From NCBI GenBank assembly GCA_902802815.1, contig CADCNQ010000014.1:1-64000 (forward strand): 64,000 nt of DNA, written 5' to 3'. Shown here piece after piece: positions 7,188 to 57,994 of the stretch; position 1 is the first letter of the stretch; every line of letters begins with the position of its first letter. Source of the stretch: an uncultured Bacteroidales bacterium. GTDB taxonomy: Bacteria; Bacteroidota; Bacteroidia; Bacteroidales; Bacteroidaceae. Both the position numbers and the translations under genes were made by a program. Below the pieces are notes generated by a model, which ran no database searches, was not told where the DNA came from, and saw nothing but the letters and a program-made list of their open reading frames with translations.

Positions 7188-7253
7188 TCTACTACCTATC
7201 TACTACCTACGTACTACCTATCTACTACCTATATACTACCCATGTAGTTGTCT
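7188..7253 (+). repeat. 11-bp-period tandem array A (six units)
   Basis: Six consecutive 11-base units run in unbroken register. Units 1, 2 and 4 are identical (TCTACTACCTA), units 3 and 5 differ at two or three bases, and unit 6 (TGTAGTTGTCT) carries the inverted core GTAGT. The array is non-coding and starts just after the stop of the thioredoxin-like gene. No named repeat family is recognised. Confidence 0.85.
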
Positions 7254-7270
7254 CGCCCTTCCCATACTGA

Positions 7271-7358
7271 TGGCAAGCTTTTGGCAAGCTCAAACAGCTT
7301 GCTTGGGCTTGCGAAGTCCTTGCCATCTCCTTGCCAAGTCCTTGCCTAGGGCTTGCGA
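7271..7358 (+). repeat. 11-bp-period tandem array B (eight units)
   Basis: Eight 11-base units run in continuous register. The first two carry the core GGCAAGC and the remaining six carry its inverse, CTTGC or GCTTGC, so the array can fold on itself. The core is unrelated to that of array A, which ends 17 bases upstream, yet the period is the same. Together the two arrays fill most of the 264 bases between the thioredoxin-like gene and the rlpA-like promoter. Confidence 0.85.
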
Positions 7359-7423
7359 AGACAAAAAATCCCGATTTTATACATACTCTAAACACTAAAT
7401 TCTAAACTCTCCACTTTTTTTTG

Positions 7424-31941: not shown

Positions 31942-33330
31942 CTATTTCACCCGATATTTCTTTCCGTCGCGAATGAAATATCCGGAAGCGGGTTTCTCGG
32001 AAAGTCTTCTCCCCAGAAGGTCGTAAATGGGCTGGTCTGTTTCCTGCTCCCTTTCTTCCGGAAGGTCTTCAAGGCCGGAAGGTTCGACGGGCAGAATCGT
32101 GCCGAAACTCTTCCAGGGAGACGACGCACGATAGCGATTCAGCGCAATAGCAGGTACGTAAAGTGTTGCGGCGCTGCAATCAACACCGTAGAAAGCATCC
32201 AGACTGGTGGTCGGCACCTTTTCCGCCATACAGGTGACAGAGGAAATATTACGGCAAAAACTGAAAGCACAGCTCCCAATGCTTTCCACTTTGGAGGAGA
32301 TGCTTATTTCGCTGAGACTGTCGCAGTTTGAAAACGCCAGATTCCCGATGGAAACGACGTTTTCCGGTATGGTGATGCTGTGAAGTCCGGAATTGCAGAA
32401 CGCCTCCCGGCCTATACTCGTGATGCTCTCGGGAATAGTAATCGAGGTCAATTCCTCACACCCGTAGAACGCAAGCCGTGAGATTTTTTTCACGCTTTCG
32501 GGTATCTCTGTATTAAAGCATCCAAGCAGCAGCGTGCCGGAATAAGTCTCTATCACAGCATTACTCCCATCCCGACTGTCGTAGACGGCATTTTCCTCAT
32601 CAACGGTGATGGACGAGAGGGCCGGACAATCGTAGAAGGCGCCGTCTCCGATGGACGTCACACCGCTGCCGATATGCAGTGACTCCAGCGAATCGCAGTA
32701 GCGGAACACATACCAGTCAATACGCTCCACACCGTCGGGAATTGTGACTGAAGTGAGAGCTGAGCAACCGAAAAAAAGTCCGTCGCGCAGAATTTTCACG
32801 CCATCCGGGATGTTTATGTCCGTGAGTGCAGAGCATCCCTGAAAAGCAGAAATGCCGATATTCGTCAGACTCCCGGAAAGGGTGAGCGACTGCAGCGAGA
32901 CGCAGTCCTGAAAAGCAAAGCGTCCCACAGTCTTTACGCCGTCGCCCATCGTTATGGAAATCAGGTCGGTACAGAAATAAAACGCATAATTCCCTATACG
33001 CTGCACACTCTCGGGAACAGAAACCGCGTGGAGACGGAGGCTGCGGAAGAAAGCCCAGTCGCTGATGCCCGTCACATAGTAGCTGATGCCGTCGTGCTCC
33101 ACAAAGGATGGAATCGCAACATCCCCCGCATACGAATTCCCATATACAGAACCGTATGTTACGGAAACCGTTTCTTCCGAGGTTTTGTCATAGTATATCC
33201 CACCCTCCCTGAAGTCGTAGGCCCACGCAAGGGAGGCAACGGCCGCAGAAAAAGAAATCGCCAGCAACCGTTTGTTTTTCAGCAGGTAACCGGCACGCAA
33301 CACAGGATAAAAAAGACTTGTGAAGCTCAT
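31942..33330 (-). CDS. BspA-like leucine-rich repeat surface protein with C-terminal tail
   Basis: The protein of 462 residues starts at 33330, because a consensus promoter overlaps the longer reading frame. A hydrophobic signal-like segment (L-L-A-I-S-F-S-A-A-V) precedes about ten LRR_5-type repeats of roughly 23 residues. Typical phrases are S-I-T-I-P-E-S, I-G-x-x-A-F and C-x-x-L-x-S-I. BspA-type repeats mediate binding to host or bacterial surfaces in oral Bacteroidetes. The end, I-Y-D-L-L-G-R-R-L followed by G-Y-F-I-R-D-G-K-K-Y, resembles the short sorting tails of Prevotella secreted proteins. The gene is monocistronic and divergent from the next. Confidence 0.88.
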   Translation of the reverse strand: MSFTSLFYPVLRAGYLLKNKRLLAISFSAAVASLAWAYDFREGGIYYDKTSEETVSVTYGSVYGNSYAGDVAIPSFVEHDGISYYVTGISDWAFFRSLRLHAVSVPESVQRIGNYAFYFCTDLISITMGDGVKTVGRFAFQDCVSLQSLTLSGSLTNIGISAFQGCSALTDINIPDGVKILRDGLFFGCSALTSVTIPDGVERIDWYVFRYCDSLESLHIGSGVTSIGDGAFYDCPALSSITVDEENAVYDSRDGSNAVIETYSGTLLLGCFNTEIPESVKKISRLAFYGCEELTSITIPESITSIGREAFCNSGLHSITIPENVVSIGNLAFSNCDSLSEISISSKVESIGSCAFSFCRNISSVTCMAEKVPTTSLDAFYGVDCSAATLYVPAIALNRYRASSPWKSFGTILPVEPSGLEDLPEEREQETDQPIYDLLGRRLSEKPASGYFIRDGKKYRVK

Positions 33331-33338
33331 TGACGCCG

Positions 33339-33369
33339 CAAAGGTACGCATTTTTCACGACTCCGCAAA
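33339..33369 (-). promoter_or_regulatory. Consensus promoter of the BspA-like gene
   Basis: On the minus strand TTTG (33366-33369) and TACCTTTG (33339-33346) are separated by exactly 19 bases, a full match to the Bacteroidetes vegetative promoter. The ATG at 33330 lies only eight bases beyond the -7 box, so the transcript would be almost leaderless. Confidence 0.8.
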
Positions 33370-33443
33370 ACAAGTGACGGAATTTTACTCTATTTTTGCC
33401 TTCACACCCCCGTCTCATGGTCCGTTCATACTGCCTTCAGAGG

Positions 33444-33597
33444 CCGAGTAGAGACCGAGCAGAGTCCGCTCAGTTAACGAGTGGTGTACGAGTGGACTAC
33501 GAGCAGACTACGAGTGGTGTACGAGAAAACTCGTTAACTGCTCGTTAACTACTCGTTATTAACTCGTATTCCGCTCGTATTGCAGTCGGCACGAGTA
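33444..33597 (+). repeat. 11-bp-period tandem array C (fourteen units)
   Basis: Fourteen 11-base units run without a register break. Units 4-8 carry ACGAG (units 4 and 7 are identical, ACGAGTGGTGT). Units 9-13 carry the inverted core (C)TCGT, and unit 14 carries ACGAG again. The array lies between divergent promoters in the 487 bases between the BspA-like gene and the next gene. The rest of that gap holds the two promoters and AT-rich sequence with nothing else recognised. Confidence 0.85.
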
Positions 33598-33750
33598 AGG
33601 ACTCTGCCCGAACTCTGAACGGAAGTATGGACAGAACTGTATTGGCTGGGCAGATTTTGCTCAATTTTACGAAATTATCTCTTAAATTGTCAAGAAAAGA
33701 CCAAATATTTGCGTTTTACCCCTCCCCTATGTATTTTTTTTACCATTTTC

Positions 33751-33781
33751 TTTGTCATTTCGGGATAATGACTTACCTTTG
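33751..33781 (+). promoter_or_regulatory. Consensus promoter of the duplicated-domain secreted protein
   Basis: TTTG (33751-33754), 19 bases, then TACCTTTG (33774-33781) match the Bacteroidetes -33/-7 consensus exactly. The chosen ATG at 33818 lies 36 bases beyond the box. Confidence 0.82.
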
Positions 33782-33817
33782 CGCCAAAGCATATTACAAA
33801 GCATAATACAGAGACTT

Positions 33818-35347
33818 ATGAACAACAGAATCTTTACTCTTCTCATCGCACTCTTTGCAACTATGTTGTGCACGCAGGCATCAGATGCCCTGACCAGTCT
33901 TAAGATTACAATTAGCGAAAACGGCGGCACCCCGCATACGGAAACACTTCCGGCTTCAGGTATGCCGGTTATTGACCTGACCAATGAAATGATGACATCT
34001 CTAGCTATCAACGGAGTAGAGGTGGGGACAACAGGTACAGTCAAGAACGTAAAGGCCGTCGGCTCCGTCTACAAACAGGGTAATACGCCATCGGAATGGC
34101 GGGATATCCCACTTCAAAACCAAGGCGACGGCATTTGGAGCATTTCGGGTATCAGCGCAGACCTCATCGACGAGGGCATGGGCTCATCTGCCAGAGTGTT
34201 TGAGTTTTACGTAAGTGCCACCGACGCCAACGACAACCCCATCTACTTCAACAACGGTGGGCAAAACTACAAGGTAATCTTCGTTCCGGCTGGAAGTTCA
34301 GATGCCATCACATCCCTCAATCTCAGAGTGCGTGTGAACAACGGAGCTTCTTTTGAGACGTCGTTCCCCGCTTCCGGTTTCGAGCCTCTTGACATTACTG
34401 ACGAAGAGACCACCTCGATCATTCTCGAGCGCGTGAAGGCAAAAACTGCCGGCAACGTCAGCAACGTGCAGATTTTCGGCACTATGTACAAGCAAGGCAG
34501 AACTCCGGAAGGCTGGATGGGATTCCCACTCAACGAGGAGGAAAGCGGTGTCTGGAGGTTGGAAATGAATCAGGAACTCATTGAGGAGGGAATGGGTGAT
34601 GACCCCAGAGTGTTTGAGTTCTATGTCTGCGCCACCGACGGCAACGACAACACCATTTACTACAACAACGGCGGGCAGAACTACAAAATCATCTTCAAGC
34701 CCAGCACCGGCGGCGGTGGCGGTGGAGGAGGCGATGATAAGGTGAAGTTCTTCAAAGACAACACCGCATCCATCACGCTCAATTTCAACGACAACGACCA
34801 GGAGTACATCTACGACGGCGATGGGAAACGCGATCCCGGCACCAGTCAGCAACCCGGCGGACTCTCCTCTCTCACCATCAAGGAAACCAGCATCCGCTTC
34901 GTACGCAACGACAATTCGTATATTAAAGACGTAAGCTTACAGTACAAGGTGTACGAAGACGGCCAGAGCACAGGCTGGAATCGCATCGACATTAAAAACA
35001 TCCAAGAGGAGAAAACCTACAATCCGGAGAAAGAGACCTTTGAGACGAAAGTGACTTGCAACGCCGACAACCTCGAACTCAACGTCTCAAGCGGTCTCGT
35101 GCCCAAGAAAAACTACAACCTGGAAATCATGTATCAGATTGTCACATACGACGGTGACTACATTATGTTCCTGCAGAACAAAGAAACCAGTATCTTTAAG
35201 TTCTCGATGTCCACCAGCGGTGTGGGGAGTCTGAAGGCTGACGGCAAGAAAAAAGCTGTTCGCTATGACCTCAACGGTCGCAAACTCAACAGCAAGCCCA
35301 CCAGCGGACTTTACATCGAAGACGGAAAGATCTATCTGGCTCAATAA
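33818..35347 (+). CDS. Secreted protein with duplicated domain and C-terminal sorting-like tail
   Basis: I do not recognise this 509-residue protein. A signal peptide (residues 1-22, ending C-T-Q-A-S) is followed by two similar domains at about 25-157 and 163-296. Both contain Y-K-Q-G-x-T-P-x-x-W, E/D-E-G-M-G, R-V-F-E-F-Y-V-x-A-T-D and N-N-G-G-Q-N-Y-K. An eight-glycine linker (298-305) leads to a third beta-rich region (306-480). The end, Y-D-L-N-G-R-K-L then G-L-Y-I-E-D-G-K, resembles tails of type IX-exported Prevotella proteins. Export to the surface is inferred; the function is unknown. The start at 33818 was chosen because the longer frame begins inside the promoter. Confidence 0.8.
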   Translation: MNNRIFTLLIALFATMLCTQASDALTSLKITISENGGTPHTETLPASGMPVIDLTNEMMTSLAINGVEVGTTGTVKNVKAVGSVYKQGNTPSEWRDIPLQNQGDGIWSISGISADLIDEGMGSSARVFEFYVSATDANDNPIYFNNGGQNYKVIFVPAGSSDAITSLNLRVRVNNGASFETSFPASGFEPLDITDEETTSIILERVKAKTAGNVSNVQIFGTMYKQGRTPEGWMGFPLNEEESGVWRLEMNQELIEEGMGDDPRVFEFYVCATDGNDNTIYYNNGGQNYKIIFKPSTGGGGGGGGDDKVKFFKDNTASITLNFNDNDQEYIYDGDGKRDPGTSQQPGGLSSLTIKETSIRFVRNDNSYIKDVSLQYKVYEDGQSTGWNRIDIKNIQEEKTYNPEKETFETKVTCNADNLELNVSSGLVPKKNYNLEIMYQIVTYDGDYIMFLQNKETSIFKFSMSTSGVGSLKADGKKKAVRYDLNGRKLNSKPTSGLYIEDGKIYLAQ

Positions 35348-57869: not shown

Positions 57870-57884
57870 ACGGTGAATGCCTTC

Positions 57885-57994
57885 ATCTATCGGGCATCTA
57901 TCGAGCATCTATCGGGCATCTATCGAGGATCTATCGAGGATCTATCGGAAAACCCCGATAGATATGCCTGCCATCTCTACCCTATCGTGCATCC
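57885..57994 (+). repeat. 11-bp-period tandem array D (ten units)
   Basis: Six near-identical units (ATCTATCGGGC, ATCTATCGAGC, ATCTATCGAGG and variants) are followed in the same 11-base register by AACCCCGATAG and then A-T-rich, weaker units. The seventh unit carries the inverse of the core (CCCGATAGAT). The array starts 15 bases after the carbonic anhydrase stop and lies between convergent genes. Confidence 0.85.

Follow-up and report, generated by a model that had tools for sequence, protein, structure and literature searches.

A dispersed, fixed-plan array of 11-bp repeats in an uncultured Bacteroidales bacterium that looks like a protein-binding array

The array C locus

Our analysis of a 64,000-nucleotide stretch of an uncultured rumen Bacteroidales genome, here referred to as the window, centered on a repeat array, array C, that lies between two divergently transcribed genes. 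One of them (31942 to 33351, minus strand) encodes a 469-amino-acid (aa) BspA-type leucine-rich-repeat (LRR) protein (Pfam PF13306; E value of 5.6e-76). The other is a 531-aa open reading frame (ORF) on the plus strand, called from a TTG codon (33752 to 35347) but with a likely start at the ATG at 33819, for which no Pfam match was obtained. A sequence-only reading had proposed type IX export of both products. The two proteins do end with the same tail, YDLxGRxLxxKPxxGxxIxDGK, but neither matches an NCBIfam model of the type IX C-terminal domain at an E value of ≤1.

Direct reading confirmed that the array lies between two divergent promoters, both of which, judged by eye, fit the Bacteroidetes consensus. 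The promoter of the LRR gene (33339 to 33369, minus strand) consists of TAnnTTTG, a 19-nt gap, and TTTG, the elements appearing as CAAAGGTA at 33339 to 33346 and CAAA at 33366 to 33369; its TACCTTTG motif is 181 bp from the array center. The promoter of the 531-aa ORF (33751 to 33781, plus strand) comprises TTTG at 33751 to 33754, a 19-nt gap, and TACCTTTG at 33774 to 33781, the latter 246 bp from the center. Both promoters point outward and are positioned beyond the array.

Array C contains five ACGAG cores in 11-bp steps (starts at 33477, 33488, 33499, 33510, and 33521), followed by five inverted CTCGT cores (starts at 33530, 33541, 33552, 33563, and 33574), so that the ten-core plan spans 33477 to 33578. 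The four inner left units (33477 to 33520, plus strand) follow the pattern ACGAG-YRGWNW, with the spacers TGGTGT, TGGACT, CAGACT, and TGGTGT, and a core of at least 4/5 is present at these positions in 90 to 100% of the 30 copies compared below. The center (33521 to 33534) is the dyad ACGAG-AAAA-CTCGT, both cores of which occur in 30 of 30 copies, and the four inner right units (33535 to 33578, minus strand) carry inverted CTCGT cores of at least 4/5 in 80 to 100% of them. The 11-bp periodicity extends further, from about 33433 to 33622, through diverged, CCNNTCAGAGT-like units that have lost the core. On the left (33433 to 33476, plus strand), these are of the CCNNYCAGAGT type and alike in other copies, with a core frequency of 0 at unit L5; on the right (33579 to 33622, minus strand), they likewise keep the 11-bp period but have diverged. 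The claim of fourteen units thus captured a real 11-bp repeat, but its count mixes the ten ACGAG/CTCGT units with diverged outer ones. The inverted half had also been placed in one register with the direct half, which is incorrect, as the facing innermost cores are 9 bp apart and not 11. The lag-11 identity of array C was 33/44. In none of 60 Markov-simulated windows of 64 kb did it exceed 26/44, nor did any of them contain a 5-mer recurring four times in 11-bp steps. A chance origin of the array is thereby excluded.

Copies, positions, and conservation of the family

Array C belongs to a dispersed element family, here called F1. Searching the host genome (G000; 2.46 Mb in 37 contigs) for the pattern yielded 12 copies, each on a different contig; this distribution hints at even spacing but, by a rough hand estimate with partly known contig sizes, is not significant (P of ~0.08). 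Laid out from the center, the copies exhibit the same order of parts and often the same spacers, with TGGTGT, TGGACT, TGGTGT, and CAGTTA recurring on the left and TAACTG on the right, and their outer units are loosely inverted. The common order and spacers indicate that the copies derive from one ancestor and are not independent products of slippage. When named genomes were scanned, the majority of matches fell in metagenome-assembled genomes of rumen or gut Bacteroidales, mainly Tb.RUG.95 and RGIG10342, which we equated by matching coordinates with the sister-species genomes G031 and G030, respectively; we disregarded a few isolated hits from unrelated taxa. Within the genus, 37 genomes were searched, the host included, and only 4 of them had the F1 core. 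A description of 11-bp arrays of such type in Prevotella-like bacteria was not found in the open-access collection of papers searched.

At 11 of the 12 loci, the array lies between the same neighbor genes in G030 and/or G031, and most of the neighbor proteins differ by roughly 5 to 10% between the host and these sister species. The shared positions suggest that F1 copies barely move. Across 30 copies, core presence ranged from 0.80 to 1.00 at the ten positions and dropped to 0.00 to 0.07 one unit outward, a fall sharp enough to conclude that the unit number is fixed; at least nine of the ten cores were kept in 28 of these copies. Identity between orthologues reached 0.902 in the cores versus 0.623 in the spacers and 0.674 in the flanks (21 comparisons, partly nonindependent). 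At the level of sequence, this pattern amounts to a phylogenetic footprint that covers ten 5-bp sites in fixed phase, and the selective conservation of the cores speaks against the proposal that the array is just a spacer.

Spacer likeness was 0.67 among copies within the host genome and 0.73 between host and G031 orthologues, compared with 0.52 between orthologues of the host and G030, the most distant of the three species, and 0.53 for nonorthologous pairs. At 7 of 7 loci, the G030 orthologue fell below the paralogue mean, narrowly in two. Spacers of paralogues are thus closer than those of G030 orthologues, which points to spacer turnover per lineage. Such turnover may reflect conversion between copies or a shifted preference of a putative partner protein, while place and cores stay. 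Neither sister species has an F1 counterpart of the copy that precedes the cytochrome bd gene; at this site (stretch L193), G030 carries a different 11-bp array of the CAGACTCCTCG type and G031 carries none. Conversely, G030 has a TraB/PrgY/gumN-family gene together with an F1 array beside lpxB, both of which are absent from the same site in the host and G031 (L061, 3992 to 5340, versus L198 and L199), so that the empty site misses the gene along with the array. These two cases suggest that some gain or loss of F1 continues.

Nine of the 12 copies lie between divergent genes, one at a convergent border, and two between codirectional genes. In an unbiased 400-kb sample, 24 of 69 intergenic regions were divergent borders; against this background, the bias yielded a P value of 0.005 (0.0005 when weighted by length), with the reservation that genes were called by a simple codon-based script and individual border assignments may be wrong. 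Most genes reading away from an array are preceded by an outward TAnnTTTG motif beyond the inner array, at most loci 113 to 286 bp from its center. Between orthologues, these distances are near constant at some loci (113/113/113 and 168/168/168) and shifted by about 10 to 11, or roughly one helical turn, at others (149/138/138 and 182/182/172). The neighbors, named by Pfam matches and otherwise by eye, include an alpha-galactosidase-like enzyme, an MscS-like channel, an FKBP-like isomerase, an RsmH-like methyltransferase, an ArgF-like transferase, an acyltransferase, clostripain, and cytochrome bd, and no function common to them was found.

At the array C locus itself, G030 has the order rpsL-array-lemA and lacks both the LRR gene and the 531-aa gene, while G031 has the LRR gene as a 162-aa ORF and lacks the 531-aa gene, which among these three genomes is thus found only in the host. 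The LRR genes are numerous, and the LRR gene therefore could not be used as an anchor for orthologous loci. The order seen in G030, rpsL-array-lemA, appears to be the older one. Since both genes are missing in a sister species, array C was probably not installed to serve either of them. The sequence-only reading of the array as a shared upstream region with about one site per helical turn holds in outline, as phased sites conserved over their spacers do lie upstream of promoters on both sides. A control region private to the two secreted proteins is not supported, however, since the element stands beside at least 10 unrelated gene pairs and is also present where these genes are absent.

Mobile-element, slippage, operator, and hairpin explanations

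A doubtful but possible alternative is that F1 is a MITE- or BrickBuilt-like nonautonomous repeat that expanded in an ancestral genome and has since become largely immobile, with its 11-bp repeats constituting a minisatellite and its core either a relic of transposase binding or a product of conversion. The BrickBuilt MITE of Porphyromonas gingivalis occurs in 19 dispersed intergenic copies with 1 to 22.8 internal tandem repeats of 23 nt; it has segments with promoter activity, many positions common to strains, and a distinct leader and tail that carry IS5-like terminal repeats (PMC4596501). F1 resembles it in being a dispersed intergenic element of Bacteroidales with internal tandem repeats (the BrickBuilt unit corresponds to about two helical turns), and its dozen copies, overall inverted layout, and spacers that are closer within the host than to G030 would all fit such an origin. 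Moreover, the host genome contains a second 11-bp family, F2, of the form (ATCTATCGRGC)n-AAAA-CCCGA with the center CGG-AAAA-CCCGA, at about 16 loci, including 57884 to 57966 of the window. With its variable unit number (about 3 to 8) and conserved leader and tail, F2 is BrickBuilt-like (PMC4596501), whereas F1, with a fixed 5+5 inverted plan, unrelated sequence, and no comparable leader or tail seen, is not. The sharing of 11 of 12 positions with sister species and the fixed unit number further argue against this origin for F1, and conversion should homogenize the spacers as well, yet only the cores are kept. A search for the Y1 (RAYT) transposase (PF01797) gave no match in the draft genomes of the host, G030, and G031. 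The background of repeat dispersal nevertheless makes an old MITE-like origin of F1 quite possible. REPINs, which are dispersed short inverted doublets long kept in extragenic DNA that form hairpins and are linked to RAYT transposases (PMC3116915, PMC8049555), share with F1 the inverted layout and the long persistence; their identity with F1 was rejected because no Y1 transposase was found in the three draft carrier genomes and pairing between the arms is not maintained (see below).

F1 might instead be a neutral intergenic minisatellite generated by replication slippage and serving at most as a promoter spacer, an idea that we strongly disfavor. The genus is indeed rich in intergenic arrays with periods of 7, 8, 11, and 22 bp, and the larger indels inside orthologous F1 arrays are mostly of 11 or 22 bp, with occasional gains or losses of whole units. 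However, unlinked copies follow one and the same unit order, conservation is far higher in the cores than in the spacers or flanks, and the unit number does not vary between copies and orthologues in the manner of a VNTR. Among the other arrays of the host genome (L158 to L177) are many intergenic 7-bp arrays (TTTCAAC, ATTATCA, and GAAACCT types) and 8-bp arrays (CAACTTGT); one 45-bp segment of the latter type matches dozens of places in the host and G031. A third 11-bp family, F3, is a composite of CTACTACCTA and GGCAAGG blocks at about eight loci, among them 7188 to 7360 of the window, L025 (3454 to 3658), and L173 (3001 to 3239); three of its copies are located no more than about 150 bp from a contig end, which suggests a repeat that breaks the assembly. 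Randomly sampled congeners carry 22-bp arrays between genes, built on different and often palindromic cores, and in G003, G011, G012, G017, and G024 (L090 to L109) these cores are species specific (GGTTAACC, CTGCAG, ACACGTGT, and GGTCGTGACG). At the threshold used, the sampled congeners yielded no 11-bp arrays, and the four outgroup families sampled yielded neither 11-bp nor 22-bp intergenic arrays. The notion that all short arrays in the host genome are helically phased was dropped, given that arrays with a period of 7 bp are no rarer and that 8-bp ones are present as well; helical phase is therefore not the sole rule in the genus.

Operators of the PhoB/OmpR type consist of tandem 11-bp direct repeats that bind one subunit per turn, usually few in number and located at genes of one regulon. 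Direct-repeat spacing of 11 bp upstream of promoters, as in F1, is typical of this family, but ten sites in two facing blocks would be unusual for such operators, and the neighbors of F1 are without a common theme. A conventional response-regulator operator of this type controlling a regulon is thus highly unlikely, and a shared-function regulon in general was rejected because the neighbors are unrelated.

Finally, it is hardly credible that the palindromic layout folds into a hairpin (as RNA) or a cruciform (as DNA) to terminate transcription or absorb supercoiling. Single strands of F1 do fold better than shuffled sequences (z of −2.7 to −7.6), and this stability is explained by the inverted cores. 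Facing in-register spacers, however, paired at 0.401 compared with 0.454 (standard deviation, 0.014) in same-species between-copy controls, with 0 of 2,000 shuffles as low. Pairing below chance indicates that no hairpin is maintained between the arms, and when shifted registers were allowed, the best register within a copy was no better than that between copies (0.738 versus 0.741). An off-centre 22-bp stem is 0.41 to 1.00 paired in the host but decays to 0.55 to 0.82 in G030. The array lies upstream of outward promoters and is therefore probably not transcribed from them; an Rfam search matched only tRNAs and not the array, and no terminator-like site was found at it. The failure of both the in-register and shifted-register tests led us to reject a hairpin or RNA element.

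A putative multi-site binding array

The reading that we prefer, at a probability of roughly 45%, is that array C is a member of a scattered family of fixed-plan DNA elements, each constituting a multi-site array for a putative sequence-specific, cooperating protein. This reading draws on the common plan and number of the copies, their shared positions, the conservation of cores over spacers, the fixed unit number, the larger indels of mostly 11 or 22 bp, the bias toward divergent borders, the promoters placed outside the array at nearly constant distances, and the lack of maintained pairing between the arms. Ten ACGAG(YRG) sites, five facing five around the central AAAA dyad and one helical turn apart, would be read by this candidate protein, probably with nucleation at the dyad. 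The protein may then line up cooperatively in both directions along one face of the DNA and build a nucleoprotein block that would lie upstream of both flanking promoters. The outcome could be regulation, insulation of the two promoters from each other, or anchoring of the nucleoid, and the unrelated neighbors make a metabolic regulon less likely than a general role in insulation or in the nucleoid. Cores conserved above spacers and flanks at orthologous sites are what an operator array predicts, and F1 looks like a DNA-level footprint resembling a protein-binding array rather than a filler repeat.

Several observations weigh against a binding array. No candidate binding protein is linked to F1 arrays, and three copies occupy nondivergent borders, with some copies apparently gained or lost. 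The genome has a general process that generates repeats, as its other short intergenic arrays (periods of 7, 8, 11, and 22 bp) show, and the turnover of F1 spacers within lineages resembles that in repeat families whose members stay similar through conversion or recopying.

Among known binding arrays, F1 recalls the parC centromere of plasmid R1, in which ten direct repeats flank a promoter and ParR requires a minimum of two 11-bp repeats (PMC9426499 and its reference 5). Both have ten 11-bp repeats in two blocks of five, but the F1 blocks are mutually inverted and occur in about 12 chromosomal copies, as opposed to a single plasmid locus beside parM/parR. The genes flanking F1 are unrelated to this pair, and a search of the genome for ParM (PF06406) gave no match, although the search control also matched nowhere. 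A broader speculation, which we consider unlikely, is that many helically phased arrays, with a period of 11 bp in this clade and 22 bp in congeners, organize the chromosomes of this rumen Bacteroidales genus as a dispersed centromere-like or insulator system. Each array type would have its own core and its own partner protein, with array and protein co-evolving fast enough to give every clade a private "code" at conserved positions.

If array C and its relatives are indeed multi-site binding arrays, each would serve as its own bait, and one labeled oligonucleotide could identify the binding protein. The unpaired arms and the lineage-wise turnover of spacers also provide a testable case of how long inverted arrays are kept stable. 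F1 would represent an unusually clear footprint of a putative chromosome-binding protein in a large group of gut and rumen bacteria whose nucleoid organization is poorly known.
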